DNA of 64,000 nucleotides from Trichuris trichiura (taxonomy: Eukaryota > Nematoda > Enoplea > Trichinellida > Trichuridae), in contig JBAJFE010000009.1 of the NCBI GenBank assembly GCA_037903355.1, forward strand, positions 1,240,001 to 1,304,000. Direction: 5' to 3'. Of the stretch, positions 31,681 through 63,939 are shown piece by piece; position 1 is the stretch's first letter, and each line of letters opens with the position of its first letter. The notes beneath the pieces were generated by a model. It saw only the letters and a program-made list of their open reading frames with translations. It did no database searches and was not told the origin of the DNA. A program made the translations under genes and the position numbers.

Positions 31681-31800
31681 AGACCGCTGAAGACGGCTCA
31701 CGATTGACCCGAAAGCTCCGGAGAAATTAAAAATTTTAAAACGGGACCTACATTCCATATAAGAAAGAGTTTAAGACCTATTATTCACCGTAAAATTCTT
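31681..31800 (+). repeat. hammerhead-like repeat, copy 1
   Basis: CTGAAGA (31687-31693), then C, a stem-loop with GGCTC..GACCC (one mismatch), and GAAA at 31711-31714. It is followed by GCTCCGGAGAAATT and an ACGGGAC block near 31741. The same order of blocks occurs at 52690-52790. Confidence 0.5.
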
Positions 31801-32650
31801 AAGCCACTATTGTAAACAGCTGTATTAAGAATGCACGTTGTATATAGATTTTGTGCACGGCAAGTCCCTTTGCGGAAACAAAAATTTTTAACATCGGAGT
31901 TTTTGGGTTTTGGACTGCACCCGTCATCAGCAGACGGATTAGAGCATAAAAACAAGCGATTTTCGCCTAATTTGGACGCTGACGACTAGTGGAGGTCAAA
32001 AGCTGAAAGCTGCGACGCTAACAGTTTTCATTTCCATAATGGGACTTAGCGTAAATAAAAAACTTGTACATTACGAAGCTCTACTATGTCGTTACGAAGA
32101 GTTGCGTGCTCAAAGAATGCTTATTAATACTTCTAGCGCCCATAAATTAAACTGCAGAACAACAATGCTGTCCACGAGCTCATAGCGTTGGTTTTGAAAT
32201 TCCTTTAAAAAGCTGATTTCCCGTATGTCACGCAAGCTTTAAATCATACGCTGTTAGACTTCGAAGACTTTAAACTTTTGCTCAATTGATCGCTAAAACA
32301 GTGGATTTCTTTTATTACGGACGAACGATCCCTTTCGCCTGGTGAGCATATTTTCGTTACCGTAAGTTATAAATAAGACTTTCCTAAAGATAGGATTCCC
32401 TTCTTAACTAATAATTAACAATAAATCAGACTTACTAAGGTCCTGTCGGTTATGCGCTCAACGGTCTCAGAAATGCAGGTTCTTTTCTGTTAAGCACGCG
32501 ACCATTCTGTTTCACCTTTACTGGCGGGTGTGCCAGATATACTGATCTGCCCTTATCTGAGTCTAAGCCCAAATATAGGGTTTATGTAAACCTTCAGGCT
32601 TAGAAGAGAGTAGAAAAGCATAACCGGCAGAATTACAGTATGACAGTAGG

Positions 32651-32839
32651 GCTTCTTTTTATACGGATTTTGAGTCCCGTTGAAAAACTTTTATTACTAA
32701 AATCTCCGTAGTTTTCGGGTCCAAACGTCATACGTCAATTTAAGGCCGCTGATGACGGGTTGCGTTTGGACCCGAAAGCTACGGAGATTTTAGTAATAAA
32801 AGTTTTTCAAAGGGACACAAAATCCGTATAAAAAGAAGC
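32651..32839. mobile_element. long palindromic element with hammerhead-like core (copy 2)
   Basis: Arms of about 76 bp (32651-32727 and 32763-32839) are near-perfect reverse complements, starting GCTTCTTTTTATACGGATTT. The 35-bp centre and the inner right arm carry CTGATGA (32749-32755), C, GGGT..ACCC and GAAA (32774-32777). A direct copy of TGACAGTAGGGCT lies on each side (32641-32653 and 32886-32898), which could be a target-site duplication. I see no open frame inside. It could be a MITE-like element or the inverted terminal part of a Penelope-like retroelement. Confidence 0.65.
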
Positions 32840-33638
32840 AACCCAATGAAATTATACTGTCCCGTATGAAGAAACTATATCTTCATGACAGTAGGGCTGT
32901 TAAAAGATAAAAACTCACGAATATAGTAGCCTTGTTGACAAATGATACACTCTTGCTATGAGCGAAACAAGTGAAGATAAATACTACTGAATACGCTGAA
33001 GTAATAAATGGCAGTTCGAATAAAAGCAGGTGTGTTCAATGCAACAGACAAAAAGGGATATCCTGAACGAAGATACAACGTTTTCCTAGCAACAGAGCTT
33101 AGCAAAAGCTTTCCTGAAAGTTGTTTAACGTTTGACTTTTACAAATGGCTTCCTTTCGCCTTGATGGACAACAGGCGTGGTCCAACTTCGCCTTTGCCTT
33201 AGTAAACTTATTCGAAAAGCACGTTGCGACTTTTTATCGACGTATCCCGCGTGGAAAAAACAGTTATTCATGTTTTCCGCGTAAAATGCTCCTAAATTAC
33301 AGCTCCACTTACTTGCTTACTACGTGAGCGCTGCGGTGAACTTGTAGCAACCAGGCCGACCATATCGCATATACACTACACGCAATAGCGGGGATAAATG
33401 CAACCAAACCTGCCGACTGATTCATGCGGACAAAACTGGGCAACGCGTGCACTGTAGGCTGCGCTATATGCGCAATGAATCATTGCCAATCTAGCCAATG
33501 AATTCACAATATTACGCATCTCATATACTTGTAATTTATTATATATTTTTTTAAAGAAATGCCATTCAACAGTTTCGCTTAATTCAGTTTTTTTGGTGCG
33601 GCTGAAGTTCAGTTGTTTTAGAAAGGGAGCGAAGTGGT

Positions 33639-35767
33639 ATGGAGCACAAAAGTGACGAATATCAGAAAAAAACGAGGAAACCAAGTAACTTAAAGCGAAG
33701 AGCTACGCAATCGCAGCGAGCGATAAGAACCCAAGTTGCTGCGATTGCTTCTGTCTTTAGAAGAGCTCCAAAAAAGGTTATTAAAAAGGAAGCGGAAATC
33801 AAAGGTAATTTTTTCAGCTCACCTCCCGCGCAAACAAAGTGTTTTGATTTATACGCACTAGAAGTTGTTCTGAAACAGTCTGATCCGATCAGGCAAGCGG
33901 AATTCTTTCTTGGTAGACTACCTCGCGAAGAGGTTGACCTTTTGCTTAGCGAAAATGGTCAATACGCTGTTAGAGTGTCGGGAGCAAAAGAAGCACATCA
34001 CAGTGGTCTATGTTTGTCCGTCCGCTGGAATAATACGAATCTGCACATAATCATAATGATCAATGAGAAGGTAGGAACCGTTATTACCTTTTTTCAGAAT
34101 TCGTTGTTAACCCGCTGATGTTGTTCATGAAGTCAGCAGTCGCTTAATAAAAAATCGGCAGTTTTTCCTACTGGCAGCATCGCACATCGTGAGTCAGACT
34201 TCCGTTATGCAAATCACTTAGCCAAAATTAGTCAGCAGAAAAAGAGCTGCACCAAAAACTTTGCGAATAAAAAAGGTTTAAGCAATTTGCGCGTCATTAT
34301 GCTGACCATGATATTCGTCCGCATTAGGGACAGCTTAAAACAAATTTCCAATTCCGTTTTCGTAATTGCAGGGCAAATACTCTATCAATCGGAAAAAGAC
34401 CTTCGAGCACATCGATCAGCTTGTCAGGTACTACGTGACGGAGAAACAGATAGTGAGCCAAGAGTTGGGAGCCCTACTGATTAAGCCAGTATGCAGGCCA
34501 GACTGGATAATTAATGGAAACAAGTTAACCCAGGACAAAAAGCTTGGCGAGGTGACACTTCCATTTCGTAGCTTACATTGACAAGCGCGTTTGAAGTTTT
34601 ACCGAACATAGGGAAATTTTGGTGAAGTCTGGAGTGGTACCCTGCAAAGGGGCAATGACGTCATTGAAGTTGCTATCAAATTTCTTAAAAAAGATAAAGT
34701 TCCATCCAGTGAGGAGTTGTTGTTTTACAAGGAATGCAGAAGACTTCGAGCGCTAAACCACAGGCATGTTGTAAAGTTTTTGGGAGTTACCGCGTGCGAA
34801 GATTCTTTGAAACTAATCATGGAGCTATGCGACGGTTTGTACCTTACAATTTCTATCTCGATTGCTTCGCCTTGGCTACTAATCATGCCTCATTGAAGTA
34901 CAAAAGCATAGAGAGCTCAAAACGATTAAAAATCAGAGTCGGCATAAGATAAAATTTTTTAAATCCCTGGAAAGATCCTGAAAATCGCTTTAAGCCTTAA
35001 TGCTTGGAATTTAAGACGGACTATGCCACTACTTGCGCTCAAACGCCGGGAAAATAACTCTGACGGCCAAAGGGCGAATTCTTGTGCACATTGCTCGAGG
35101 GATGGAGTACTTAGCGAACGAAGGAATAATTCACAGGTAAAGATCGTAGGCCGAATAGCTTTGCCAATTAATCCTGCTTAATTCTATAACAGAGATCTGG
35201 CGGCAAGAAATTGCCTAATAAAGAGAGACATTCATAAAATATCCGACCTCGGTATGGCAAGGGAAGGGAACTTGTACAAGATGTCCAATAGACTAAAGCC
35301 AGTGCCAATAAAATGGACTGCACCGGACGCTTTAAGAACAGGTTTAAAAAGCTTCAGTTTTTGAAATTTCCATGTCGTTCGTACATTTCAGGAAGCTACT
35401 CGCAAGCCGCCGACGTGTGGTCGTATGGAGTCCTAATTTGGGAAGTAATGACGGACGGGAAAGCACCGTACGCCGATCTGCAAGAAAAATACGGACGGCG
35501 CTTCACGGTGCGATTGCTTGAACTTCTTGACGAAGGTTCATTCAATAGTCAGCTTTGATTAAGAGATAAATAAAGTTTTCAGGCTATCGTTTAACGCTTC
35601 CTTCAAACACGCCAAGCGAGATAAGTGCAATTATGGCAAGCTGCATGGAAAAGGACGCTGACAAGCGCAAAACATTTAAGGAAATACGAGAAGCTCTTGA
35701 GGGATTTCATGTCCAAAGGGGAGGTATTATTAGCTGGAGCGCTGACACAACTTCAAACAAAAGGTAA
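33639..35767 (+). CDS. short SH2-tyrosine kinase, Fer/SPE-8-like nematode type
   Basis: Seven exons close to 477 residues: 33639-34070, 34372-34551, 34612-34834, 35016-35136, 35193-35341, 35392-35535 and 35583-35767. The basic N-terminus (about residues 1-70) is rich in Lys/Arg. The SH2 domain has the phosphotyrosine-binding Arg in GQYAVRVSG. The catalytic domain starts KKLGEGNFGEVW and has VAIKFL (ATP Lys), an alpha-C Glu in [10 protein letters not shown], the catalytic loop HRDLAARN, activation-loop Tyr in GNLYKMS, and [12 protein letters not shown]. No F-BAR domain is present, unlike mammalian Fer/Fes, which fits the worm-expanded SH2-kinase family; several members act in sperm (SPE-8 group). 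Two signature motifs are altered: DFG reads DLG, and APE reads APD ([11 protein letters not shown]). The HRD Asp and Mg-binding Asp remain, so activity is plausible. Residues specific to a named orthologue are not visible. Confidence 0.92.
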
Positions 35768-39370: not shown

Positions 39371-39462
39371 GTATTATTTATGTACCTGCATACACATATT
39401 GTACTGTAGGCACTAGGTATTATTTATGTACCTGCATACACATATTGTACTGTAGGCACTGG
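39371..39462. repeat. 46-bp exact tandem duplication
   Basis: Two head-to-tail copies (39371-39416 and 39417-39462) start GTATTATTTATGTACCTGCA. They differ at one base near the end, so the duplication is recent. Confidence 0.95.
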
Positions 39463-39996: not shown

Positions 39997-44602
<4,606 letters not shown>

Positions 44603-45838: not shown

Positions 45839-47571
45839 TCTGACAATCACGCTGCTGTTGTAGCTAATGAATGAAACCGAAGCACTTATAAATGACATAG
45901 CAGTCATATTGTTTGTACAACTGGGCAATGCCGCTGTTATTTCTACAATGAAAAGTATGTTTTACGCTGAACGCAATTTTTCCTCCGCCATCCTTACGAA
46001 AGTGGAAAAATGAGCGTTTGTTCGCAGTTGTAGCAACTAACCAAAAGAAAATGTATAAAGCGGCAAAAATCTGATGCTATGGATGCTTAATCAAACTGAG
46101 AAGCATTGATAGCGTTTATCCAAATATGGTTTGCTGAAACAACAGATCAGCAATTTCGAGGCCATGACTGAGGGGGCGGCAAGAGAACCGCAGCGAAAAA
46201 GAAGGGGCAGAGGGAAGAATCACGTGAGGGATCATGCAGCAGTCTGTGTTATCATTGTGCACGCATAAAGTTGCTATCCCATTGTGGTATCTGCCGGCTG
46301 AATAATGTCTCTATTTACGGGCGAGTTTTCTATTTTCCCATGATCTACGCATTGACTACACCAAACTATTGAGCCTATGACAGAGTACGCCAAGTCGACC
46401 AAGAAAATAGCATGAAAAATAACGAAGGCAGCTTTCATCCTGGGAAGATTGACTCGATGGATGCTGGTGAAATCAATGCTCTAAAAATATTGATGGTGAG
46501 GTTAAGCTTAAGAAATCCTGTAATACGTCACGAATTTTGAAGTCGAATTGTGTAAAACGTTTACCCGTTATCGTAGGACGAAGTCTACGTACAGATATCG
46601 TTTGTGATACATCTGTGCGTGTAAATCCTGCCTGCAAAACGCTTCGTGCGTAGTACTGATGGAATTTGGGCTGAACAAAGTGCAACAATTCAAATAATCT
46701 GATGTTGCCTTCTTCCTAACAAGCAAACATGTCAAAGCAATGTTTCAATTATTCTGAACGGCGCAAATAACTGTTACTGCTTAAGAAATTGAGTTCTCAT
46801 ACAATGTAAAAGATTCTCGCGCAGCGTCTTTAAATAACTAAGGCAAAAGTTGCTACTCTGAATCTCTCTAGTGTCAAAAGAGTTCACTTAGTCTGTATGG
46901 GGGTGTACTTATGTTTGAAGAAAAGTAGAAATGCAATGTACTGAGGCTTAGGCGTTAAAGGGCGTTGCCGCTGAGTGATATAAGAAATTTTATATAATAA
47001 TCGCATGCAGATCATTTGATCAAGAGAAAACTGGGAACCCCGTCGTTACGTTACGTATTTAATCATTTGATACGTGCTATACTATTATTTTCTGGGATTA
47101 ACACAGTTACCAAATACAAAAAGAGATGGATAAGTATTAACAGGACTACTTTTCGCGCGGCACTACAGTAACTTACATTTTTGACAAGTAGGCTGAGTTT
47201 GACTTGAAAGTCGTGATGATGAAAACATCCATACGTGAAAAGTGAGCTTCTATTAGCAGAATAAATTTAACTTTTGAAACTCCTCTCAACTATGTGGAAT
47301 GTTGAATATGACGTTGACACAAGAAGACAAAATTTCACGAGCTGTACTTTGTCAATATCGTTCTTACTTGATGCAGATGCAGTCATTTAACCACTAGTTT
47401 GTGCTGCAAAACTCACAACCATAATTTCAGCTGTTCGTTAAGCATTAGTTCTGTATGAACCTATTGATCACAATCTTGTAGTCCTATTAGTTTCCCGCCT
47501 TCTCTCTAGCTTCGAATTTTTAAATTGTTGGTAAGCCGTACGGCACGAGTCCTGTTAAGCTATTGCTATAT
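45839..47571. other. intergenic, no gene recognised
   Basis: No splice-consistent exon chain was found. The open frame at 46473-46688 (-) has no relative in the window. Confidence 0.4.
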
Positions 47572-48000: not shown

Positions 48001-48330
48001 CTATTTAGGAGCATGCATAGTTTGCCAACTTGCAGTTATCGATCTGTTCATTATTCTTAGATTGAACTTTTCGTCTATGCCACTTGTAATCAAAAGTAGA
48101 AATTCTATTTTTCTTTTTTCATACTCTTTCCTTACGTATACTCTCAACTGGCTCGTTTCTAAAGAATAGTCATTAATTGTAAAGATTTCGGACGGATTTT
48201 GGTCCACCATAATAACGCATGATAATAGGACCGGATGTTTGTTAGGTTCAGGACATGCGATTTTAAAGGAAGGAAAAGGCGGGTTCACATTGAAAAAACC
48301 TACCCTTTGGAAATAGTTCTTATTCGACAG
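48001..48330 (-). CDS. conserved open frame in duplication copy A, unknown
   Basis: The minus-strand frame ends MNRSITASWQTM... at the same stop as its duplicate at 53252-53581. Between the two copies there is an in-frame 3-nt insertion (one Cys) and about 30 amino-acid differences in about 105 residues, while the frame stays open. Shared parts include RVYVRKEYEKRK and FNLRIMNRSITASWQTM. Upstream exons are not found. A 28-nt length difference just upstream breaks the longer frame, so this may be an exon or a decaying gene. Confidence 0.35.
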   Translation of the reverse strand: MSNKNYFQRVGFFNVNPPFPSFKIACPEPNKHPVLLSCVIMVDQNPSEIFTINDYSLETSQLRVYVRKEYEKRKIEFLLLITSGIDEKFNLRIMNRSITASWQTMHAPK

Positions 48331-49715: not shown

Positions 49716-50501
49716 TCACGGCCTAACGTGAGCCCCATCTGACCGGCCGGCTGGTGGACGGGCAGAAGATTTTCCATTGCTTCGCTGAGTAGGTGGATAA
49801 AGATATCCCGCTCCAGATTTATCCGCTTGTCCTGCCATCTTTACATGCGCTTTTGGCTGATTTTTTTTACTTTCGAAAGTGCTTCCAAGATAAATTGAGC
49901 TACGCTTTCCATTCGTCGCATAAGGGATTTTCCCTACTGTTGTATTACGTGGCTTGCTTTCTAAATTACTTTTATTGGAGGTTACGGAATAATGACCTCG
50001 TTTGCCAGGTCGAAGTGACTCTAGCGACGAAAATAGTCGACGTATTCCTGTTTCTACGCTGCTTACAAATGACCATGTGGACTGTGTTCCATTCGATTGA
50101 TGACGCTGAACTTCCACAGATCGATAGCTTTTCTGTCTCACCTCATAACTTCCGGACTTAATGTGCAAATTAGTTGTTACATTAGTAGGCCCTGTTTGAG
50201 CAGAACTATTGCCTCGTTGTTTAGGTGGTCCCTTTTTGACAGGAGGCGCAGGTGATGAATGACGTCGACTTGGAATAGCTGGTGGTCGCAATCGAACTTC
50301 CCCTTTCGCAAGAATGCTTTCAAACGGTGCAACCAAATCTGCAGTTTCTTTCGGAGGTATGATTGCAACTTTCACTACAGGGTTAAATCTTATATTTTCT
50401 CCTTGAGCTTTCGTAAGACCAGGTGGTTTCAGAATTGATTTCGAGCGAGACGTATGCAAGAAAACAATGAAAAGCAATACAGTCACTTTAAATGCGCCCA
50501 T
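49716..50501 (-). CDS. small secreted protein, SILK family, copy A
   Basis: The single exon encodes 261 residues. The signal peptide (residues about 1-20, MGAFKVTVLLFIVFLHTSRS) is identical to that of the duplicate at 54968-55705. KSILK follows at 21-25. The RVSF of the relative at 45254-45838 aligns with NIRF here, then NPVVKVAIIPPKETAD. The mature region is basic, rich in Ser, Pro, Asn and Arg, and contains no cysteine, which suggests a disordered chain. It includes SSVETGIRRLFSSLESLRP, conserved between the copies. A TATA-like ATAATA lies about 65 bp upstream of the ATG on the coding strand, in sequence shared with the duplicate. Function is unknown. Confidence 0.75.
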   Translation of the reverse strand: MGAFKVTVLLFIVFLHTSRSKSILKPPGLTKAQGENIRFNPVVKVAIIPPKETADLVAPFESILAKGEVRLRPPAIPSRRHSSPAPPVKKGPPKQRGNSSAQTGPTNVTTNLHIKSGSYEVRQKSYRSVEVQRHQSNGTQSTWSFVSSVETGIRRLFSSLESLRPGKRGHYSVTSNKSNLESKPRNTTVGKIPYATNGKRSSIYLGSTFESKKNQPKAHVKMAGQADKSGAGYLYPPTQRSNGKSSARPPAGRSDGAHVRP

Positions 50502-51252
50502 CTTGAACGTGGGAACAGCAGCTCGTAAGAGTGGAGTAAGTCCAGTACGACGCTCTATTATAAGGCATAAGCCTCACAGCAGCCCACATGTCAAACATTT
50601 CGCTTTCCTTGCGCTTTCCTTGTTTTCTTTACTACTCAACAAAGGCTGAACAAAAAGGAAATTGCTGGCTATGTTGTCCTTTCTTCAATTAATTTCAGCC
50701 TAAGCAACAGACACCATTTTGATAAGCATTTAGCTGATGAGCATTGCATTGCTCCTAAAACTACGTAGTTGAAAACCGAGCGCTAAATCCATCAGCACAG
50801 CGCGCGTGTGCGTTTCGTAGCGTGCGAAACGCTGTTCATTCAGGAATAAGAATTCATTTATTAGCAATAGCGCCTTTAATTGCTTTTTACTCAACTTAAC
50901 AGCAGTGCTCTCACGTCAGCAAAAAATTATTAACTATAGCTTCAGCGCGTATTTGCTTTTAGTTTGTCCTGGCGTTGTTCATGTTATTTGAAATGTCGTA
51001 TAGGTGTCACGCGAATAGAACACGGCAATAGGAATGTTTACCTTTTGACGTCTCCATTACAAATGGAGAAGTCAAGCATACATTGTTCATTTATGAATCT
51101 AGCTCACTTAGTGAAGTAAATAAGTAACTTCATATTTTACTATATCATAGAATGCTTGTCATAAAAACAGGAACCGCGCGCGTCAGTTTTTTCTTAGGGT
51201 CTCTTCATCTCGTCAATCGTCACCTTTATTATAGCCACGTTGGCTACACAGT

Positions 51253-52636
51253 TTAATTATATAACATACTTTTAACATCTATTTTCTCTTCTGAGTTGGA
51301 GGCAGTTGGTAATGTAAGTTCCCATACGTAAAATTCAACACCTCTCCAGTGGTATCCTTGCCATTTCTGATCTTCCAGCAGTTTTTTTACATCAGTTAGG
51401 TTAGAAAGTTGTACAGGGCCAAGACGTGGGTGTCGAAACGTATATATCCCAGTAGTTGCTTTGCACATATCCTTTCCTGGGACTGCATAACCCATTGTTC
51501 CACTCCAGACGTAACCACGGTAATTTGCCGCAGTAATGGCAGTAGAGTCGATGGTGTATATGTTTTTCTTCTTTTTGTCATTTCTCGAAACCGCAATAGG
51601 CTGCATGAAAGGACACGCTGTGCTATTTGAAGCTTTGACAGCTCGTCCAGCTGGCCCTAGGTTGCTAACGCCTTTTGCTACTAAGGCACTGACCGCCTGC
51701 TGGTCTATTTCAAAAATGTTTCGATTTTCTTTCTTGTCATACAGTCGAATGAAGTCCGCCAGCTATGACGCTGAAAGTAATTTTAAGCATTCTTTACATA
51801 TTTTTTTATCCTCCATTTTTTACGCTGCTTCCATCATCGTTCATAAGCAACGTGTGAAAACTTTCATTTTTATCAAAATAGTTACTTACTGGGTGCCTGA
51901 CCGCATTCTTTGCCTTCTGGAGTAGTGGATGATGTAGTTATTGTTGTGTTAGTGGCATTAGTGGCAGCTGGAGTTGGATCAATGCTAAAAAAAATAACTG
52001 CAAATGCATCACGCGGTTTGAAACTTTAACTGCAGCTGAACTGCACCTCATTTTCGCGGCTGATATGACGTTTGCCCTTGCGTACTGACAAAAGTCAATC
52101 AATATATTATTTTTCAAATTCAGAAGTCTGCGGTTGTTCCGTGGAATTTCCATTAAGGTAAACTACGCTTAGCTTGAAATTTTGAAAGTTTGTTTTTCTC
52201 TTCTTTACTACATTTTATTTGCAAGCTCAGCTACGCCCTTGTTGGAAAGCGCCTACTTACTCTGATTGCCATAAAGCACCTCCAACCGTTGTACAATTCT
52301 CAGCAGGACTGCATGGCCTTAGCATTTTTCCTTTTCTGACTGGCGGGAATTCAGTGAACGAAGAAAGAATTGAATAGCAAGCGAAATGCTTACAGCACAG
52401 GTCGTCCCTGCACCTGGGAAACGCTGTACCGCAAACAGAACATACTGGCAAAGGTGGAGCGATCGTATGCGGACACATATTGGGAAGAGCTTTTCAATAT
52501 CAAAGTAGACGGGGCATATTCGATTAGAAGAAGGTCTTAACCTGTGTGGATAAGCACAGACGGTCAAATATTGTGCTGTATTGCCGCTGCATTCAGCTCT
52601 AGCGCATCCGATTAGACCGCCTTCGAACCAGAGAAA
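51253..52636 (-). pseudogene. truncated CAP/DUF5648-like gene, copy A
   Basis: This is the duplicate of exons 4-8 of the gene at 56533-58729. Exon 4 (52636-52542, with GCARAECSGN and YLTVCAYP) and the Cys-rich and Thr-rich exons are present. The homology stops just upstream at 52665, so exons 1-3 (signal peptide and most of the CAP domain) are missing. In the last exon, codon CAG of the duplicate is TAG here (51765-51763), which ends the frame before the C-terminal domain. The original stop is also lost, giving a 14-residue extension to 51253. Three independent lesions make this a pseudogene, although a rescued shorter product cannot be excluded. Confidence 0.8.
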
Positions 52637-52664
52637 CTTCAAGTTGACAAAATTTGTAATTTTT

Positions 52665-52822
52665 TTCTATTTCTGTGACACACACACATCACTGACCGCT
52701 GAAGACGGGTCGCGACAGACCCGAAAGCTCCGGAAAAATGTTTTACATTTATTGTACTTATGAACGGGACACTTCATCCGTAATAAAGACACAATATATA
52801 ATGCGCTGTACAATTGCGGTAG
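52665..52822 (+). repeat. duplication spacer with hammerhead-like repeat, copy 3
   Basis: These 158 bp separate the two 5.1-kb copies. They contain CTGAAGA (52699-52705), C, GGGTC..GACCC (perfect stem, 6-nt loop) and GAAA (52723-52726). GCTCCGG and an ACGGGAC..CATCCGTAAT block follow, as in copies 1 and 2. Confidence 0.55.
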
Positions 52823-53251
52823 CCTTTGCCGCTATACAGAAAAGTTTATTTGTATAAAATCTCTGAGGCTTTTATACTACGCTTGACCTTTCGTCTACCT
52901 GAAATAGATGCATCAGAGAGAAAAGAAAGTAGCAACGAGAGTTTCGATGTAAGAAATTAATCAATCGCAAGTTAAATTAAGAGGCGTGCAGTAATCCAAG
53001 GAAACAATCTGATTTTTATTTCTTGACTTTTTAGTCTGACTTTTAACCTGGAAGGAACGTAGATCCCACGGTATGTTTTCCTGTAGAAGCAAAGGATCAA
53101 GAGGTTGATGTGCGTGGGAAAACTAACGTCAAAAATCCAGGAGAACCTGTGTATACGCGTCGAATCAGAGCACAATTCGTTCAAGATATTCTCTTTGTTA
53201 GTGCGCTTGCGCGACCTCTGCAGCGTTCTATTATAACTCAGTAAAATACTG

Positions 53252-53581
53252 CTATTTACGAGCCTTCATAGTTTGCCAACTTGCAGTTATCGATCTGTTC
53301 ATTATTCTTAGATTGAACTTTTTGTCTATGCCTCTTGTAACCAAAAGTAGAAATTCTGTTTTTCTTTTTTCATACTCTTTCCTTACGTATACTCTCAACT
53401 CTTTCGTTTCTGAAGAGTGGTCTTTATTTGTAAAGATTTCAGGTGGACTTTGGTTTACAGTAACAACGCATGGTGATAGGACCGGCTGTTTATTAGGTTC
53501 AGGACAGCATGTGATTTTAAAAGAGGGAAAACGCTGGGTTACATTGAAGAAACCTACCCTTAGGAAATAGTTCTTATTCAA
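53252..53581 (-). CDS. conserved open frame in duplication copy B, unknown
   Basis: 109-residue frame, duplicate of 48001-48330. An acceptor-like site (TTTTTGAATTTTAG) lies about 20 bp upstream of the frame start on the coding strand, so it may be a terminal exon. It contains a CCPEPN segment with one extra Cys compared with copy A. No family recognised. Confidence 0.35.
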   Translation of the reverse strand: MNKNYFLRVGFFNVTQRFPSFKITCCPEPNKQPVLSPCVVTVNQSPPEIFTNKDHSSETKELRVYVRKEYEKRKTEFLLLVTRGIDKKFNLRIMNRSITASWQTMKARK

Positions 53582-54967
53582 CGCAAAATAAAACTAAAAT
53601 TCAAAAACTGAACTTAGTAATTCCTCTTTTCTATTAGCCCCGTGCTTACAGTAACCTAAAAATGAAGTTAGGTTCATTTAAAACCCATATCGACGTCACT
53701 GATTTACAGCGAGGTAATAGACATCATTGAATAGCCTTTCGCAGTGTTGCACTACTCCGTCTTAAAAAATGAGGTATGATTTCTTCCTTTCCACACAGAA
53801 GGGATAGACGATATTCCCATACATTTAGCCATAGGGTTACGTGCTAGCATTTCCCTCCTCTGTCACAGGCACGCTATGCCCAGTATCAATGCTTCCCGAT
53901 GGAAAAATACTAACTACTCAGTTTGGTTCTCCAAATGAACTCCCGTGGCAAATAATTTCCAATTACGGGACACGTTCAATGAGCTCATGAGTTGCTTGTC
54001 GACAACGCAGCGAACACTGCCCGCTGCCTAGGTTTAAGACCGTAACCAAAACGCGTTATAAATTAACTCGTTAAAATGGCAAAAAACGGGATGAAATTTT
54101 TCGCATGCGCACGTCCTTTTAAGGGATCAACTTTCACCTGTTCTGTTTTGTAGCAGAACTGTATAGCTGGGCGGAAAATAAATAAATCACCAGGTCAGGC
54201 CAACAACGAATCGCTTTATGAAGGTCAAAAAACTAATGTAACGTTCTGATGTACTTAATTTCACGTATGTGGTACTGTATGCGAATGTGAAGCTTTTTTA
54301 ATTATTAGAAGATCGCGAAAATACAAACGAAAGGGAATTTAACAAAATGATTAAATGTAAATAAAATTAAATTGGAAGAACAAATTCAAATGTGCAGGCG
54401 CAATGAAAACAAACAGCAGAAATAAAAGACTTCTGGTTTATTTATATTTGCTTTATTGCCTAAGTAACGCGGAGCAGTTTCTCGTAATTTATTTCATGGA
54501 TACGCGCCTCGCAAAATTTTTTTAAGCTGCTCAAATCATGACGATTGGGATAACAAAAAGTAATTGTGGATGCGCATAGGCAGGTGAAACATTTCTCGTT
54601 TACCACGGAGGCCTTGCAAGTCTTTAATAAAGCGCTGCAACTTGAGCATGCAATGAGCAATGCTTACCTCTACTTAGATCACGCAATGCAACAATTTTAA
54701 GCGTATTTATCAATTGCTATCATTGTTTTTTGTTGCATGTAATCCAAGGTTTAATTTTTTATAGTTTGTGAAAATGTTAAATCATTTTACTTGAGCGTGT
54801 CTTGAAGGCAAAGTCGAGTGCGCGTAGACAAAAACTGTGCGCAGGGCTTCGAGTGGTCACATAACTAGTAAAGCGCACTTAATTCATTCCGAGAAAGTGT
54901 TGTCGTCCAAAACAAATTCGCTCACGGCCTACCGTTAATCCGAACTGACCGGCTGGCTGGCGGGCGG

Positions 54968-55705
54968 TTAAAATCTTCCATTGTATCGCTGAGTAGGTGG
55001 ATAAAGATATCTCGATCCAGATTTGTCCATTTGTCCTAGCGTCATTACTTGAGCACTTGGCTTATTATTTTTACTTTCGAAAGTGCTTCCAAGATAAATT
55101 GAACTATGCCTTCCACTCGGCTGATAAGAGATTGTCCCTTCTGTCGAAAAACGTGGCTTGCTTTCTAAGTTACTTTTAATGGAGCTTACGGAATAACGAT
55201 CGCGTTTGCGAGGTCGAAGTGACTCTACCGACGAAAATAGTCGACGTATTCCTGTTTCTACGCTGCTTACAAATGACCGTGTGGGCTGCCTTCCATACGA
55301 CTGATGACGCTGAACTTCCCAAGATCGATAGTTTCTCTGTCCCACCTCGTATCTTTCGAACTTATGGTACAAATTACTTGTTACATTAGTAGGCCTTGTT
55401 TCAGCAGTACCATTGCCAGGTTGCCTATGTTGTCCCTCTGTGGAAGCATTCCCTGGCGACAAATGACCAGGACTTGGAGTAGCTGGTGGTCGCAATGAAA
55501 TTTTCTCTTCTGCAAGGATGCTTTCAGTTGGCGCAAACATATGTGCATTTTCTCTCGAAGGTATGATTGCAACATCCACTACAGGGTTAAATTTTATATT
55601 TTCTGCTTGAGATTTCGAAAGACCAGGTGGTTTCAGAATTGATTTCGAACGAGACGTATGCAAGAAGACAATGAAAAGCAATACAGTCACTTTAAATGCG
55701 CCCAT
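54968..55705 (-). CDS. small secreted protein, SILK family, copy B
   Basis: The single exon encodes 245 residues. The signal peptide and KSILKPPGL are identical to copy A (49716-50501). In the next 60 residues about one position in three differs (for example KVAIIPPKETAD against DVAIIPSRENAH), although the 140 bp directly upstream of the ATG differ at only about three sites. The C-terminus is shorter than in copy A, because copy A reads 16 residues further. No cysteines and no recognised domain. Shared blocks include SFVSSVETGIRRLFSS and SSIYLGSTFESK. Confidence 0.75.
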   Translation of the reverse strand: MGAFKVTVLLFIVFLHTSRSKSILKPPGLSKSQAENIKFNPVVDVAIIPSRENAHMFAPTESILAEEKISLRPPATPSPGHLSPGNASTEGQHRQPGNGTAETRPTNVTSNLYHKFERYEVGQRNYRSWEVQRHQSYGRQPTRSFVSSVETGIRRLFSSVESLRPRKRDRYSVSSIKSNLESKPRFSTEGTISYQPSGRHSSIYLGSTFESKNNKPSAQVMTLGQMDKSGSRYLYPPTQRYNGRF

Positions 55706-56532
55706 TTTGAACGTGGGAACAGCAGCTCGTAGGAGTGGAGTAAGTCCAGTACGACGCTCTATTATAAGGCAGAAGCCTCACAGCAGCCCACATGTCAAAC
55801 ATTTCGCTTTCCTTACGCTTTCCTTGTTTTCTTTACTACTCAACAAAGGCTGAACAAAAGGAAACTAATGGTTGTATTGTTCTTGTTTCAATTAGTTTCT
55901 GCCTAAGCAACTGATACGGTTGTGATAAGCATTTAGCTGATGAGCATTGCATCGCGCCTCAAATTACATTGTTGAAAACCGAATGCTATATCCATTAGCA
56001 TAGCACGCGAAACGTTGCATGGGCGCTGCGTAGCCGACGAAACGCTGCTCATTCAGGAATTACGATTCATTTATTTAGCTATAGCGCGTTTCCTTGCTTT
56101 TTACTCAACTTCACAGCAGTGCTCTCGCGTCACCAGAAAACTATCAGCTATGGCTTCAGCGCGTATTTGTTTTTCGTCTGTCCTGGCGTTGTTCATGTTA
56201 TTTGAAAGGTCGTATGGTTGTCACGTAAATGGAACAGGACAATAGGAATGTTTACCGCTTGACGTCTCCATTACAAATGGAAAAGTCAAGCATATATTGT
56301 TCATTTATGAATCTAGCTCACCTAGTGAAAGAAATAAGTAATTTTATATTTCATTTAAATCATAGAATGCCTGTCATAACAACAGGAACCGCGAACATCG
56401 TATTTTCTGAGGGTTTCTTCATCTCGTCAATCGCCGTCTTTGTTATAGCCATACCGGCCATGCAATTCAATTATATAACATACTTTTAACATCTATTCTC
56501 TCTTCTGAGTTGGGGGCAGTAGGTAATGTATG

Positions 56533-58729
56533 TTACCATACGTAAAATTCAACACCTCTCCAGTGGTAACCTTGCCATTTCTGATCTTCAAGCAGTTTTT
56601 TTACATCTGTTAGGTTAGAAAGCTGTACAAAGCCAAGACATGGGTGTCGAAACGTATATATCCCAGTAGTTGCTTTGCACATATCCTTTCCTGGGACTGC
56701 ATAACCCATTGTTCCACTCCGGACATAACCATGGTAATTTGCTGCCGTAATGGCAGTAGAGTCGATGGTGTATATGTTTTTCTTCCTTTTGTCATTTCTC
56801 AAAACCACAATAGGCTGCATGAAAGGACACGCTGTGCTATTTAAAGCTTTGGCAACTCGTCCAGCTGGCCCTAGGTTGCTAACGCCCTTTGCAACTAAGG
56901 CACTGACCACCTGCTGCTCTATTTCAAAAATGTTTCGATTTTCTTTCTTGTCATACAGTCGAATGAAGTCCGCCAGCTGTGACGCTGAAAGTAATTTTGA
57001 GCGTTCTTTACATATTTTTTTATCCTCCATTTTCTACGCTGCTTCCATCATCGTTCATAAGCAACGTGTGAAAACTTTCATTTTTATCAAAATATTTACT
57101 TACTGGGTACCTGACCGCATTCTTTACTTTCTGGAGTAGTGGGTGATGTAGTTATTGTTGTGTTAGTGGCAACAGTAGTTGGATCAATGCCTAAAAAATA
57201 ACTGCAAATGCGTCACGCGGTTTAAAACTTTAACTGCAGCTGAATTGCTTCTCATTTTCGCGAGTGATATGACGTCTGCCCTTGCGTACTGACAAAAGTC
57301 AATCGATATATTATTTTTCAAATTCTAAAACCTGCGGTTGTTCTGCAATAATTTCCATTAAGGTAAACTACGCTGAGCTTAAAATTTTGAAAGTTTTTTT
57401 TTCTTTTCCTTACTACATTTTACTTGCAAGCTCAGCTACGCCCTTGTTGGAAAGCGCTTACTCCGGTTGTGATAAAGCATCTCCAACTGTTGTACAATTC
57501 TCAGCAGGACTGCATTGTCTTAGCATTTTTCTTTTTCTGACTGGCGGGAATTCAGTAAATGAAGAAAGAATTGAATAGCAGGCAAAATGCTTACAGCACA
57601 AGTCGTCCCTGCACCTGGGAAACGCTGTACGGCAAAGAGAACATACTGGCAAAGGTGGAGCGATCGTATGCGGACGCATATTGGGAAGAGCTCTTCAATA
57701 TCAAAGTAGACGGGGCATATTCGATTAGAAGAAGGTCTTAACCTGTGTGGATAAGCACAGACGGTCAAATATTGTGTTGTATTGCCGCCGCACTCAGATC
57801 TGGCGCATCCGATTTGGCCGCCTTCGAACCAGAGGAACTTTAAGTTGACAAAATTTGTAATTTTTCCTGCCATACATTAATGGTCATCATGGCAATTTAC
57901 CTGAAGCGTATGACTGCAAGTGGACGTTAAATTTAGGTTACAAGTATTCGTCAAGTAATCGTAGGCGTTGGCGTAAACTTCCCAAACTTCTTGAAGTACG
58001 TTCGTAGGAGACAATTGGGCAGTCGACGAATGCATCATATATCCCAAAGTGTCAGTCGTCGGTGTCTCAGTTTTGCATGTTTCTGCAATGGCGCTTGCTT
58101 TGTTTGCTAAATCGTCGCTCCAACCAGTCTAAAACAAAACTGTACGCTAATCTGGCCTTTGGTCATTCTTTATAAGCTTTTTTTAAAAGCAATTTTGCCA
58201 GCAGAAATTATACAGCGAAAATTAGAACCTGTTAATCATTTAGGATCAATATTAACGAACCATCTACGTTTTCACTACGCTCGAAGAGATCGTTTAACCT
58301 TATTTCAGCATCACCACGTGAAATAATGAATTCTTTACTTCGCATTCCATGTTTTGGGATTGAGGTCTTCGTCTAATCGAATTGTGATCAGCCAGAAGCG
58401 TAGCCCTGTCGATCTCGGACAGTTGGATAACTACAATTAGTATTGTTTTAAATTTTTTGTCTTTTCCCTCTTTATTAATATACCCATCAGTCTGACTCAT
58501 CAGGAAAGGATATAAGCAGATACGGATATTTGATTCGATTTGCAAATAGAACTATTATTGCAAAGAAAAGGTAGCAAACTGTTAATTTAAAAAAGTTGTT
58601 AGACGTGCTTATATAACCTTATCATAAAAATGCATTTGCCCAATACCCGTAAATGTTCATACCTCTTCCATGTATCACAGTGGCAAAATGCCCATAGTAG
58701 ATAGCTGCTAACAGTCCTACAAGAATCAT
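56533..58729 (-). CDS. secreted CAP/SCP protein fused to a DUF5648-like domain
   Basis: Eight exons on the minus strand: 58729-58663, 58430-58339, 58128-57901, 57837-57743, 57692-57595, 57540-57462, 57190-57104 and 57033-56533. Exon 1 is a signal peptide (MILVGLLAAIYYGHFATV). Exons 2-5 form a CAP domain: LLADHNSIRR, WSDDLANKASAIAETC, EVWEVYANAYDY, then GCARSECGGN and YLTVCAYP (CAP1/CAP2-like signatures). Exons 5-6 hold a Cys-rich hinge (CSLCRTAFPRCRDDLC). Exon 7 is a Thr-rich linker. Exon 8 (167 codons) starts with a helical part, then repeats of the type YTID..GYV..GTMGYAV and GIYTF..GY.WRGVEFYVW, which from memory resemble DUF5648. CAP proteins are abundant secreted products of parasitic worms (venom-allergen-like). 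Exons 1-6 join in phase, and so do 7-8. The 6/7 junction is one base out, because the acceptor leaves an extra G compared with copy A. So the gene is broken, spliced unusually, or carries a sequence error here. Confidence 0.75.
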
Positions 58730-59693: not shown

Positions 59694-59916
59694 TTACCGT
59701 ATTTCACGGCCTATAAGAACACACCTCTACCTAAGTAATGGGTAGTAATGATTGGCCCAGTTAATCACTTAGTGAGTCTAATTGAGGTAGAAGAATTGCT
59801 GTTCAGCTCATAGGACTAATAAGTAGAATGTGAGCCTAGGAAGTACCAACTGGGCCAATTCTTACCACCCATTACTTAGGTAGAGGGGTGTTCTTATAGG
59901 CCGTGAAATACGGTAA
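59694..59916. mobile_element. palindromic MITE-like element
   Basis: Arms of 69 bp (59694-59762 and 59848-59916) are near-perfect reverse complements, outer ends TTACCGTATTTCACGGCCTA. An 85-bp loop has no CTGANGA..GAAA core, so it appears to belong to a different family from the other palindromes. No open frame. Confidence 0.7.
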
Positions 59917-60225
59917 ATCATTATCATATGAAATTACACCGTGTATGTTTTTTTGTTTTCTTGCTTTATATATTTTTTTAGACGTAAAGCAATGCAGCTT
60001 CTAAAGATGCAGGCCAAAGCTTGTAAGCCGCATAAGAGCTTTCATTTTTGATCAGAACGGTTTTGTATAGCTTAGCATACTTGCCTTACAAAGTGCTCTT
60101 TAGTTCATAGGGATAACTTGAGTTCTTTTGTTAGCAGCGATTTTCGAACTTTAATAACTCCATAATGATTTTTTTCAAATGAATAAATATTCTTGTTAAC
60201 TGGGTGTTTTGTAAAGGGCTGTATT

Positions 60226-60532
60226 TTCATGGTTGTAAGGTCTTCTACGGCTTTTCCCGTTTTTCGTTGTGCTGTTATCTGTAATTAAACTAAAACAACT
60301 GCTCTACCAACGGATGGATGAGCCGTTATTAAGAAAATCTCCACCACCTCACTGACGACGGAACTGGAGCTTTCCGAAAGCTTTGAACACTAAAAAGTTG
60401 AGTGCGTTGATATCTGTACATTTTCTTAATAACGGCTCATCCATCCGTTGGTAGAGCAATTGTTTTAGTTTAATTACAGATAACAGCACAACGAAAAACG
60501 GGAAAAGCCGTAGAAGACCTTACAACCATGAA
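60226..60532. mobile_element. long palindromic element with hammerhead-like core (copy 4)
   Basis: Arms of about 112 bp (60226-60338 and 60420-60532) are almost perfect reverse complements. The loop carries CTGACGA (60352-60358), C, GGAA..TTCC and GAAA (60376-60379). Both arms contain the block CTCATCCATCCGTTGGTAG or its complement, which recurs beside copy 5 at 63802-63820. The near identity of the arms suggests recent formation or gene conversion. Confidence 0.7.
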
Positions 60533-62477
60533 TAAATATTAGTACAACCAATGCAAAAACTTACTTGTCTTTCTTCAGGGTTTAAAGGACAAACAATAAT
60601 AATAATAATAATCAATACACCTGAAAACTTTTATATTTGATTATGATTTATTAATAGGGAATGCTGCATGCCAGTAGAACATCTGCTGTTATTCAGCATT
60701 CATCAGTTTCAGCAAAGTTGCAAATATATGAAGAAAACAACGAATAGCAAGCTGCTGTTACTCGGTCAACGTTTTCCTTAATGAGCTCAATCGCTGAAAT
60801 CACGTTGCACTTTGTATGGCAACCAATAAGTCCTACAATCCTATGAATCAGCTTTCAAATGGAAACAGCGTCTCTATGCCTAGTTGATAAGCTTTTAATT
60901 ATTTTGAAATAAGCGTCGATTGTTGACGAAAACAGACTCCGAAGGAAGTGGCTGTCCAGAGTCCACGTGACTTAACTGAATGTTAGCACAGGACGTCTAG
61001 GACTTAAGCAATGTTTTCAAGCTAATGATAAACCAACAAGCTGAATTCCCTCAGCTGCAAATCGGTCAATCACTGAAACGTTTCGATGCGCTTAGGGTGG
61101 TACTACCACAAATTGTCACGTGGCAGAACAACGTAGTACTTTTATTAGAGTTGACAGCAAAGGAAAGATAACCTTCAAAGTGAACAGATTTCTAAATCGC
61201 CTTGAAGCTTTTGAATTCGTATTCCTCATTCTTGTTTACACTGACTAAACTTACAAGAACAGCGTTAGGTTTGCCATTTCGCTGTCTGCAAAGCTATACG
61301 TGCCTGCAATTAAATTATTATTATTGAGACCACGTGAAGTTGCTGACGGAAAAAGCATAAATGCTGATTATTGTTAATTCTTCGAAATTCCAAGCAGTAT
61401 GCGTTGTAACTGAACGAACTGCTAATCGCTAGTGGCGTTTACTGTTGGCAGCTTCCTTTGGTCTCGCTTTCCGATGCTCCATATGTCAACACAAACAGGA
61501 TTGCATTTCTGATGGATGAACGCTTCCCGAAAGAGCACAAAGGTTCTGCATTGTCAGGACGAACGTCCATAAAAAGCTGAGAGGTCTGAAAAACTATAGG
61601 CTTAATAAGGTAAAAGCGAATTATGTTGGATAAAGTGCGTATCAAGTGTCATCAGCTTGTCAATCACTTTGTCGGACAAAAGGAAAGGTGCAACTTAGCC
61701 TGCCAACATTTTCAGTATGGTAGTATCCTTTAGCAGCAGCGTTCCAACATCATGGAATTGCAATTCCTATTTTCCGGGTTTTGTAAGGAATAGAATTTTA
61801 ATGTGCAATAGTTTATTTCGCTTTTCGATAGAACATTGGCATAGAACTAATTTTATGTTTAATGCAAAAAATCATTTAGGCTTGCTGGGCGCTGCCTTTG
61901 AAAATCCTGAAACCAAAAAATGGAGAATCACGAAACCTTGCTGCCTTTCTTTTGTTCCTAACAGATAGTGTAAAATATAAGCAGTACCTGCAAATCATTC
62001 TTCTCCATTTTTAAGGAGAAGCAGGATAAACCAATCACGTTTGGTTTTTCGGGATTCTTCAATAGGCCTCTCACCGTGGTGTAATCTTTCTGGCTAATTA
62101 AAAATTATTTATGTTTAATTTTGCACGCATAAAACGGCTGAATACTATAACTAGAGCTGCTATTTAAAAAACGCCAAACGACTTAGCCGCCACTAAGAGT
62201 TCGCAAACATTGTTAATTCAAGTTTCATAATCGTAAATTATGAAATGTAAGCCATACATTAATGAACTCAAAAATTGTTCCAACTGCTTTATTAATTTCT
62301 GTTCATTTCTGCCACCTCAGTTTTACCTCTGCTGTAGACATTCGAGCTTAAATAATTGCATACGAAATAAGAAAAGCCCAAACTTTAAAACCAAATAAAC
62401 AGCATACTAGCAGGCAATAAAGGGAGGTAGGATGGTTTTATTTTGCCTAACCTTCATTTCCTTAAAGTAAAAACGGT

Positions 62478-62938
62478 TTAAGGCCAAATATAGAAGCTTG
62501 TTCCGCGCCAGCTATAACCCCTCCATAGTTGATTAGCCATGAGATTTCTCACATCGGACTGGTCTGTCAGTTGAACAAATCCCAGGATATCATTATAGAA
62601 AGTATACACTGGAACTGTCGCTCCGCAAGTACCGTTGTGGTGAACCGCGAAGCCAACAGTATGACCTTTAGTATAACCATTGGAAGTCGCCCAGTGTTCA
62701 TCCAAATGACCAATTGCGTAGAAGTTGGTAGTCGGCGGTAATTGCCTTGAATACATTGTGATTGGTTGCAGCGCGTGACATTGGGAGGTGTTCGTTGCAG
62801 TTGGAACTTTCCCAATATTACCAAGAATTTTTGCACCAAAAAGGCGAACCTGCTCATCAATCTTTGTCATTGACGTTTCCAGTATGTTCTTGTGTAGGTG
62901 ATCGATGTAAAGTCTTGTGAGGTTTACCAGAGCAGCAG
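62478..62938 (-). CDS. DUF5648-like domain exon of a third family member
   Basis: The terminal exon starts after an acceptor (CATTTAG at 62939) and ends with YSWRGTSFYIWP and a stop at the same place as the C-terminal exon of the gene at 56533-58729. It aligns throughout: LTRLYIDH..KNILE with IRLYDKKENRNIFE, LGNIGKV, the Cys before LQPI, HTVGFAVHHNGTCGATVPVY and GFVQLTDQSDVRNLM. Similarity is clear but low, so this is an older duplicate. Upstream exons were not found in the remaining kilobase, although a GC-richer stretch on the minus strand near 63360-63450 might contain one. Whether it has a CAP domain is unknown. Confidence 0.7.
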
Positions 62939-63735
62939 CTAAATGTAATTGAATTTTAAACAGATTTTCAAGGTATTTAAAACATATGCCATCATTTATT
63001 GGTTCATTGCCTAGAGAAAAGCTGAAGCGAAAATTTATCAGCCTTTCTACATTGCATTCAACAACATTCTGCTATTCATAAAAATTATGCTGTTCTAAGC
63101 TTCTGGTCAATCCATTGCATTCATGCAAAACACCTACTGCATGCGTGCATATGCCGGTGGAACGTTAGTGGACGTATCTGCTTTTGACTCCCAAAATGTA
63201 AGACACCGCGGAATGGCATGCATCTTGTACGTAAAAAAATTTCGCCCAGCGGGATAAGTCATTTTTGGAATCTATCTCACTACATGCAGAAAAGGAGCGC
63301 AGGAGCAGCTTTCATGCTAAGTTGATTCCTACCCGCCACCAACGTATCAGTGGGTAAAGCAGTATGCAATCATGTATTTCCTTAGTGAACGAGATCATAC
63401 CAGGAACGTTAGGATCTTGTGCAGGTCCCGTTGTCAATCTGCCTATAAAAGTTTGGGTGTTAAAATTTAAAAAGGAAAAAAATAGACTCCAATAAGTTTA
63501 ACCACGTTTTTCTGGGTAAAAGACAAGCAAAAAGTAGGGTTTTTAGCTGCATTTTGACGTAACGATTTCTGCTATAAAGGTCTGAAGGGGTTACAAGGAA
63601 GTCAGTTCAAAGATCCTTGTATATAGTGGATATTCCACTTTCATATTGTTTAGAGTGAATGACTTATTAATAGAAGACATTTGTGTCGCACTGGTTTTCC
63701 ATAAAGTTGAGTATTTGCTAGATGAATTGTTTGAT

Positions 63736-63939
63736 AGTAGATCTTCAGATTCACGGGTTTTGCCTGTTGGGTGTATCTGTAAGTAAACTTCAAAATGCCC
63801 TACCAACGGATGGATGAGCAAATTGTTAGAGAAATTACAGAACAAATCGAATACCGTACGTTTCGGAACTGCTCGTGTTCCGTCGTCAGCAGTGTTGGGG
63901 ACCCAACAGGCCAAACCCGTGAATCTGAAGATCTACTAT
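63736..63939 (-). mobile_element. palindromic element with hammerhead-like core (copy 5)
   Basis: Arms of about 37 bp (63736-63772 and 63901-63937) share AGTAGATCTTCAGATTCACG and its complement. On the minus strand the centre carries CTGACGA (63889-63883), C, GGAA..TTCC and GAAAC (63864-63860). CTCATCCATCCGTTGGTAG follows, in the same relative order as copy 4. No open frame. Confidence 0.65.

Follow-up and report, generated by a model that had tools for sequence, protein, structure and literature searches.

Trichuris trichiura Penelope-like elements carry probable minimal hammerheads of type I with an extra core base in their 3' regions

Analysis of a 64,000-nucleotide stretch of Trichuris trichiura DNA (the window) and comparison with the 72.7-Mb genome led us to conclude that a set of short dispersed sites are very probably minimal type-I hammerhead ribozyme (HHR) motifs, which carry one inserted core base and lie in the 3' part (pseudo-LTR) of Penelope-like elements (PLEs). 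The hammerhead and Penelope assignment had been a guess in a preliminary description of this DNA, and is now supported by the placement of stem I, of a palindrome and of a predicted cleavage site, by covariation and by the association with reverse transcriptase (RT).

Hammerhead cores in the window

Re-scanning of the window for the motif confirmed the five sites of the preliminary description with respect to position, strand and variable base (A, T or C). CTGANGAC starts at 31687, 32749, 52699 and 60352 on the plus strand and at 63889 on the minus strand, N being A, T, A, C and C, respectively. Stem II reads GGGTT/GACCC at 32749, GGGTC/GACCC at 52699, GGAA/TTCC at 60352 and GGAAC/GTTCC at 63889, while the mismatch in the stem at 31687 is C-C. 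As CTGANGAC was present 15 times in the window, compared with a mean of 4.6 and a largest count of 10 in 100 shuffles, the 8-mer alone was not counted as evidence. The full minimal HHR architecture, defined as CTGANGA, 0-2 bases, stem II of at least four pairs, GAAA, NNT, H and stem I of at least three pairs, was found at four window sites, whereas two of 300 dinucleotide shuffles contained one site and the remaining 298 none; 31687 falls outside this set because of its stem II mismatch.

Stem I and the predicted cleavage site, both left unplaced in the preliminary description, could now be assigned, stem I pairing as CCG/CGG, ACTG/CGGT or TCA/TGA and a predicted U-H cleavage site being present (Table 1), but stem III could be placed only as a reduced palindrome, AGCT or ACGT. 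In the broad sense the sites resemble a hammerhead in that stem II separates a CUGANGA strand from a GAA strand and stems I and II covary; A15.1-U16.1 and H17 are present and the palindrome is kept, with an intramolecular stem III of one pair. The Rfam hammerhead hit that had been proposed as a check, and whose lack had been listed among the refuting outcomes, was not obtained: none of the Rfam families scored above its gathering threshold anywhere in the window, and a permissive scan (E up to 5, positions 28000-64000) returned no hammerhead model. This speaks mildly against a canonical hammerhead, and a motif of ~40 nt devoid of helix III is in our judgement a poor target for the Rfam hammerhead models.

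Based on their matches to PLE 3' ends, the window copies are 5'-truncated PLE ends. The copies at 31687, 32749 and 52699 match the B/B' end, 60352 the C end and 63889 the A end, types A and C having a further stretch of ~45-70 nt beyond the core in common (77-83% identity). As at least three PLE 3' ends are represented, the single dispersed repeat family originally proposed had to be abandoned. RT was not detected at the window copies, and a search for exact TSDs of 7-14 nt at five places in the window, one of them with a guessed boundary, was negative.

Table 1. Candidate hammerhead motifs and PLE ends in the window (caret, predicted cleavage position)
Feature	Position	Strand	Details
Type-B HHR core, decayed	31684..31721	+	CCG/CGG, CTGAAGA, extra C, GGCTC/GACCC (one mismatch), GAA, AGCT, C17; predicted cleavage 31718/31719
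Type-B HHR copy, decayed	31898..31930	-	CTGATGAC, stem GGGT/ACCC, GAAA lost; sixth copy in window
Type-B' HHR	32746..32784	+	CCG CTGATGA C GGGTTGCGTTTGGACCC GAA AGCT A^CGG; predicted cleavage 32781/32782
Type-B HHR	52696..52733	+	CCG CTGAAGA C GGGTCGCGACAGACCC GAA AGCT C^CGG; predicted cleavage 52730/52731
Type-C HHR	60349..60386	+	TCA CTGACGA C GGAACTGGAGCTTTCC GAA AGCT T^TGA; predicted cleavage 60383/60384
Type-A HHR	63853..63893	-	ACTG CTGACGA C GGAACACGAGCAGTTCC GAA ACGT A^CGGT; predicted cleavage 63857/63856 on minus strand
5'-truncated PLE 3' end (B'), palindrome	32650..32882	.	arms 32651-32737 and 32753-32839, 92% complementary; 71% identical to L056 piece
Single PLE 3' end (type B)	52678..52791	+	88% identical to L039; between two 5.2-kb tandem units
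Head-to-head pair, 5'-truncated type-C PLE ends	60226..60533	.	arms 60226-60343 and 60415-60532, 97% complementary
Head-to-head type-A PLE ends	63723..63950	.	long minus copy 63901-63734, short plus copy 63903-63945; 94-95% identical to 3' end of RT-bearing L048

Genome-wide covariation and linkage to Penelope-type reverse transcriptase

The pattern matched the T. trichiura genome 5,283 times and its reversed control 91 times, an excess of ~5,190 sites that corresponds to 4.6 in every 64 kb; with its five sites, the window is therefore average. Residue 17 was H in the 5,283 matches (control 91) and G in 147 (control 11). The tetranucleotide in the place of stem III varies as a palindrome, being AGCT in 38, ACGT in 28 and another sequence in six of 72 copies.

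Stems I and II covary around the core. In 12 distinct sequences, corresponding to 13 representatives picked by the analyst, 96.9% of 96 cells were paired and 15 cells were altered on both sides, a level reached by none of 500 shuffles, and sliding the partner by 1-3 columns left only 11.5-65.2% paired. In the same set neither the pairs changed on both sides (four; 66 of 500 shuffles as high) nor the further pair types (seven; shuffle mean 7.9) exceeded the shuffles. With an unbiased pattern, the 69 distinct stem-loops among the first 100 matches listed formed 302 of 345 pairs, compared with a mean of 247 and a maximum of 268 in 2000 shuffles; pair 1 was formed in just 27 of 65 divergent copies. 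Further genomic copies with covarying stems, whose absence the preliminary description had named as refuting, are thus present. Among the matches listed, close neighbours were predominantly oriented head-to-head, in 13 of 15 cases within 500 bp and in 19 of 27 within 3.5 kb.

Penelope-type RT near longer copies, the other check that had been suggested, was likewise found. The type-A HHR-tail segment lies downstream of the RT and in sense in 28 of 30 PLE RT loci, 27 of which contain the HHR itself; upstream of the RT, matches were antisense in 13 cases and sense in eight. The direct tie to RT comprises many loci for type A, only the broken copy L039 for type B and none for type C. RVT_1 was detected in 12/12 aligned relatives and GIY-YIG in 4/12, the latter being below threshold in L040 and L046, in both of which its motif is readable by eye. 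The elements have the characteristics of PLEs, i.e. a Penelope-type RT with C-terminal GIY-YIG, direct or inverted pseudo-LTRs and 5' truncation, and copies with open RT frames occur in the genome; a type-I motif without a proper helix III in such end regions corresponds to a minimal PLE hammerhead. The closest protein relatives of the PLE RT are Trichuris RTs. A search with the PLE-RT alignment gave no confirmed relatives in prokaryote genomes and IMG/VR, and a profile search of solved structures returned nine distant RT chains. None of 72 viral stretches matching the core pattern had the full architecture, and these were treated as chance matches. Inspection of the N-terminal 60 residues in 120 related proteins gave no clear sign of a ribozyme-encoded start peptide.

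The extra core base and a proposed mechanism

One extra base, mostly C, was present after A9 and before stem II in 2,774 copies and absent from one, so that the constant extra C recorded earlier as an oddity is real and nearly constant. Among 100 sites listed, 80 have a stem of at least four pairs, and the longest stem was obtained with one intervening base in 78 of these, with two in two and with none in no case. Stem II hence does not directly abut A9 as in a canonical core, and since the extra base occurs in practically all copies counted, we filed the motifs as a hammerhead variant rather than as canonical hammerheads. Natural hammerheads in which one or two bases intervene at this place are known (PMC10085705; PMC3705267). 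In the hammerhead of a chrysanthemum viroid, an extra A here moderately slows trans-cleavage, while the reaction is severely impaired by C or G (PMC3705267), and the whipworm motifs could consequently be nearly inactive. Computation agreed with the earlier suggestion that the C may pair with the G of GAAA: a C10-G12 pair was favoured by 2.0 kcal/mol in 7/7 motifs tried, and U at the same place was not favoured. No open hammerhead core was obtained in MFE folds of window pieces (five monomer, five dimer), types A, B and B' adopting an extended stem II and the type-C piece at 60352 folding quite otherwise.

Each motif consists, in order, of stem I (3-4 bp), CUGANGA, the additional base, which is C in most cases, a stem II of 4-6 bp, GAA, the self-complementary AGCU or ACGU, H17, the predicted cleavage site and the return strand of stem I. 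From these features we infer the following course of cleavage, dimerisation, clamping and insertion. Because a stable stem III would need more than the single A15.1-U16.1 pair, two RNAs, or two tandem copies within one RNA, would pair in trans through AGCU/AGCU and stem I and thereby create a double hammerhead. This would cut PLE transcripts at a fixed point upstream of the element 3' end, at a distance ranging from ~60 nt in type B to ~125 nt in type A. Pairing of the extra C with G12 would lengthen stem II by one pair and hide a core base, and a lone RNA should thus be held back as long as it is assisted neither by dimerisation nor by the PLE protein. Spreading would occur as 5'-truncated 3' ends, often head-to-head, as would be expected if both strands of a cut target prime reverse transcription; the head-to-head bias of close neighbours is a genomic footprint in agreement with the two-strand cutting and extension by a PLE enzyme in vitro.

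A tentative and rather doubtful extension is that the core insertion acts as a built-in lock, C10-G12 imposing an inactive ground state that is opened only by palindrome dimerisation or PLE protein binding, in which case the motif would be a putative autoinhibited ribozyme. If true, it would sense copy number or RNP assembly and would represent a natural autoinhibited hammerhead maintained in thousands of copies from several stem families. The ~5,190 sites and the PLE copies with open RT frames, together with a near-constant insertion expected from the viroid work to cripple cleavage, offer a direct test of such restraint and release.

Comparison with known hammerheads and alternative readings

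Minimal PLE hammerheads were reportedly described by Cervera and De la Pena in 2014 and by Lunse, Weinberg and Breaker in 2017. As minimal dimer-type PLE HHRs have already been published, the class is known, and the extra base after A9 is the distinctive point. The whipworm motifs share with the minimal PLE HHRs without helix III, as outlined in two reviews (PMC6155905; PMC7761336), the type-I core, the near-absent stem III, the location in PLE end regions, the thousands of dispersed copies and the proposed action as dimers, but differ from what these reviews convey in that practically every copy counted has an additional base, mostly C, separating A9 from stem II. A HHR with stems I and II is also found in the pseudo-LTR of a GIY-YIG PLE of the anole, the Poseidon element PAc, in which the HHR precedes the insertion end as it does here; this HHR cleaves only with its protein, a PLE protein cuts and extends both DNA strands, and HHR mutants of the anole element had no effect on insertion in vitro (PMC11167929). 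In contrast to PAc, in which the ORF starts at stem II, the HHRs examined here follow the ORF, the motif beginning 69 nt past the stop codon of the Penelope-type RT in L046. In chrysanthemum chlorotic mottle viroid, the plus-strand hammerhead likewise has one extra base between A9 and G10.1 (PMC3705267), which is however an A, and there loop-loop contacts are important for activity and C is strongly detrimental. Type-I HHRs of amphibians (axolotl HHR_Amex1, newt) resemble ours in a helix III of one base pair and a palindromic tetraloop, and their dimers cleave better, but they belong to retrozyme or satellite repeats and form loop-loop contacts, and the cited passages of PMC7229834 do not mention an extra base.

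We consider it unlikely that the sites are near-dead or relic hammerheads, largely silenced by the extra C, in which the fold is kept for another role, e.g. PLE protein binding or placement of the reverse-transcription start. The strong effect of C in the viroid ribozyme (PMC3705267), its possible pairing with G12 and the independence of anole PLE insertion from HHR cleavage in vitro (PMC11167929) would all agree with such a relic; yet PLE ends with largely dissimilar flanks have retained the core, the palindrome and H17 (5,283 H versus 147 G), and a role that calls for nothing but a hairpin would require neither U-H nor CUGANGA. Non-autonomous retrozymes, i.e. small circular RNAs with a type-I HHR moved in trans, would likewise yield short HHR-bearing repeats without an ORF and also use a weak palindromic helix III (PMC7229834), but the short copies in the window correspond to PLE 3' ends and a tandem-repeat scan found no array at them, which makes this origin very improbable.

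Close inverted pairs among many copies could suggest a terminal inverted repeat or a foldback/MITE of a DNA transposon, with the palindrome as transposase site. This reading of the inverted pairs was dropped once RT ORFs appeared and has hardly any probability left, given that the long copies examined carry Penelope-type RT rather than transposase, that the motif occupies the 3' end in sense orientation and that single or directly repeated copies exist besides inverted pairs. Scarcely credible, too, is a microRNA precursor at 32667-32823, where MIR7807 was matched with E = 3.7e-8 in the permissive Rfam scan: the score of 52.3 bits is below the gathering score (90), and the hairpin is a palindromic PLE end from a very common family, the 32650..32882 palindrome giving rise to the sub-threshold matches to both MIR7807 and mir-255.

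Aside from the minimal hammerheads with H17, a group of HHR-like copies has G17. Two pieces of this group were examined and contained no ORF of at least 100 aa, and several of its copies occur as direct pairs 6.5-7.7 kb apart.

Hammerhead architecture and stem II pairing

All five sites with the CTGANGA-C-stem-loop-stem-GAAA core were recovered at the places reported in the preliminary description, and their assignment to the hammerhead class was borne out. The rest of a hammerhead ribozyme (HHR) was readable downstream of GAAA. In these window sites, GAA is followed on its 3' side by AGCT (ACGT at 63889) and then by H (C, A or T), the base before the predicted cleavage, after which the return strand of stem I supplies 3-4 bases complementary to those directly 5' of CTGA. 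A scan of the window for the full architecture returned four sites, 31687 being missed through a stem mismatch, and 2 of 300 dinucleotide shuffles contained it, at one site each.

Genome-wide, a pattern that left the stem and the extra base unconstrained and required SST after GAAA and H at position 17 matched 5,283 sites (2620 + 2663) of the 72.7-Mb assembly, in which the window is G000:C40:1240001-1304000, against 91 for the same pattern reversed. Imposition of a GGRWC/GWYCC stem II gave 2,774 sites, the type-B form with CCG preceding the core 1,518 and the ACGT form 353, each with a reversed control of 0.

Covariation was analysed in 12 distinct sequences from 13 representatives, chosen by us from the window and other loci. 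Of 96 cells, 96.9% were paired and 15 were altered on both sides (shuffled mean 5.1; 0/500 shuffles as high); a one-column shift of the partner lowered pairing to 65.2% or 39.6%. Neither the number of pairs changed on both sides (4, reached by 66/500 shuffles) nor that of further pair types (7 versus a shuffled mean of 7.9) stood out in this set. In 69 distinct stem-loops, drawn from 100 sites that were the first among the matches listed, 302/345 pairs were formed (maximum of 2000 shuffles, 268); the types observed include GC, AT and CG at pair 3, and at pair 4 TA, AT, CG and GC. Divergent copies with more than four differences from eight family stems (65, from 100 among the matches listed, by a pattern admitting none with G at 10.1) formed pairs 2-5 in 181/260 cases (shuffle mean 138, maximum 160 of 2000) and pair 1 in just 27/65.

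Association with a Penelope-like element

A 672-aa open frame at locus L040 contains the reverse transcriptase (RT) domain RVT_1 and, by eye, a GIY-YIG motif; as a query it gave at least 69 genome matches, fragments counted, from which 30 RT loci were built. In 28 of these a type-A HHR-tail segment lies in sense 3' of the RT, 27 being scored downstream and one (L061) 'inside', with a further RT fragment 3' of the segment; the ribozyme itself is present in 27 of the 28, L053 carrying the tail alone. L052 and L066 are without the segment after the RT, and upstream of the RT the 30 loci show 13 antisense and 8 sense matches to it. At L046, where a 775-aa frame runs to 3702, the ribozyme begins at 3771. 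The closest protein relatives of a 653-aa RT piece from this locus are from Trichuris muris (54% identity), with one T. suis fragment among the best (80% identity across 47% of the query), and on this ground the host is taken to be a whipworm. GIY-YIG scored above threshold in 4/12 aligned relatives and below it in L046 itself. Most type-A matches end ~158 nt past the first C of CTGA, a boundary obtained with a query that itself spans just 160 nt; a longer query put the ends of the window copies at +156 and +162. A type-B motif lies in sense 3' of a broken RT piece at L039, no direct tie of type C to an RT was found in the loci examined, and the window itself showed no RT fragment at E 1e-3. 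The arrangement corresponds to the Penelope layout described for Adineta vaga, where head-to-head is the commonest inverted arrangement (PMC3846280).

Among the first 100 type-B matches listed, neighbours within 500 bp were (-)(+), i.e. head-to-head with 3' ends pointing outward, in 13/15 cases (one (+)(+), one (+)(-)), and within 3.5 kb in 19/27 (3 (+)(+), 3 (-)(-), 2 (+)(-)). In three of five stretches examined across head-to-head pairs, ~3 kb separates the ends. Head-to-head arrangement has been explained earlier by self-priming (PMC3846280); an excess of it is also the trace expected of priming off both strands of a cut target, and the protein of PAc, the anole Poseidon Penelope-like element (PLE), is described as cutting and extending both strands (PMC11167929). 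No exact target-site duplication of 7-14 nt was found at five window places tried. The PLE end at 52678-52791 sits between two tandem units; on either side, at most ~25 nt separate it from the last base that matches.

A near-constant base ahead of stem II

The extra C noted previously as constant proved to be near-fixed between CTGANGA and stem II. With stem II fixed, one base preceded the stem in 2,774 copies and none in 1. Without this bias, 80 of 100 sites among the matches listed had a stem II of at least 4 pairs, and in the longest-stem register the number of extra bases (x) was 1 in 78, 2 in 2 and 0 in none; the base was C in 73 of the 78 and T in 5, where T may be a decayed CpG. In the window and the examined loci, the latter selected through matches to motif, DNA or RT, x was 1 in 71 of 72 stem-bearing sites (92 relaxed sites minus 20 without a stem), with C in 67, G in 3 and A in 1. 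The canonical GA-G...C-GAAA pattern occurred at 38 genome sites (control 1); among the 18 with at least 4 stem pairs, 15 had x = 1, the extra base being G, 2 had x = 2 and 1 had x = 0.

The suggested pairing of this C with the G of GAAA was energetically favoured in nearest-neighbour computations, the C10-G12 pair stabilising stem II by 2.0 kcal/mol in 7/7 motifs tried; with U the extended stem was not favoured, and A or G are unable to pair. Pairing with C10 would deprive the core of G12. The monomer would thus be restrained while the pair holds, and might be opened in trans in a double hammerhead formed by AGCU/AGCU or ACGU/ACGU plus stem I. For short pieces, the dimer is predicted to exceed two monomers in stability by 4-12 kcal/mol; an open double hammerhead was, however, seen in 0/5 MFE dimers, and the modelled energies thus favour this opening weakly. 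Alternatively, the PLE protein could open the pair, on the model of the anole element, whose HHR is described as cleaving only in the presence of protein (PMC11167929).

The insertion in itself has precedent, since the chrysanthemum viroid plus hammerhead carries an extra A here, with moderately slower trans-cleavage (PMC3705267, on De la Pena and Flores 2001), and one- or two-base insertions beside CUGANGA are present in known alignments (PMC10085705). At the same viroid position, C and G were majorly detrimental and U gave 3-4 fold faster cleavage (PMC3705267). Whereas the viroid base is A, whipworm PLE HHRs have mostly C in this place, and the surprise is its near-fixation as C rather than the insertion.

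The system itself is known. Work by Cervera and De la Pena in 2014 and by Lunse et al. in 2017 reportedly treats minimal HHRs of PLEs. Such HHRs are described as lacking helix III, numbering thousands of copies and possibly acting as dimers (PMC6155905; PMC7761336). Within the listings and passages searched, which cover a minority of subscription papers, neither a whipworm PLE HHR nor an extra base in PLE HHRs was reported. The near-constant core insertion makes the whipworm HHRs a variant and is worth bench testing.

Other features of the window and genome

HHR-like copies with G at position 17 form a family of which several occur as direct pairs, 6.5-7.7 kb apart; no ORF of at least 100 aa was present in the examined pieces of one such pair (L146 and L147). 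The sequence CTGACGAGGGTCRCCGTCGAAAGGTT occurs four times among the canonical-pattern sites, with a predicted stem II of at most 3 pairs.

Coordinates of features (window positions unless prefixed G000)
Feature	Position	Strand	Remark
Decayed sixth HHR copy	31930	-	type B
Open frame	33606-34118	+	SH2 match under threshold (E 8e-4, 19.8 bits, cut-off 21)
(AAT)n and (TTA)n microsatellites	6817-6892 and 6989-7059		~100 bp apart
Exact tandem duplication	39371-39460		period 46
Two tandem units	47562-57865		~5.2 kb, matched blocks 77-94% alike
G17 HHR-like pair L146 / L147	G000:C2:647248-649948 and 653921-654621		458-bp direct match, 96% identical
CTGACGAGGGTCRCCGTCGAAAGGTT repeat	G000:C1:2128276, C1:2686729, C20:419683, C39:365868		

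The palindromic PLE end at 32667-32823 is matched by Rfam MIR7807 (E 3.7e-8, under the gathering score) and mir-255, two miRNA families that may be transposon-derived. An inverted repeat at 59694-59916 has 69-nt arms, 94% complementary, and no match to the PLE ends used. G+C is 0.47-0.52 at 16001-28000 versus 0.38-0.42 in the rest of the window, and this stretch also holds several of the window's longer open frames.
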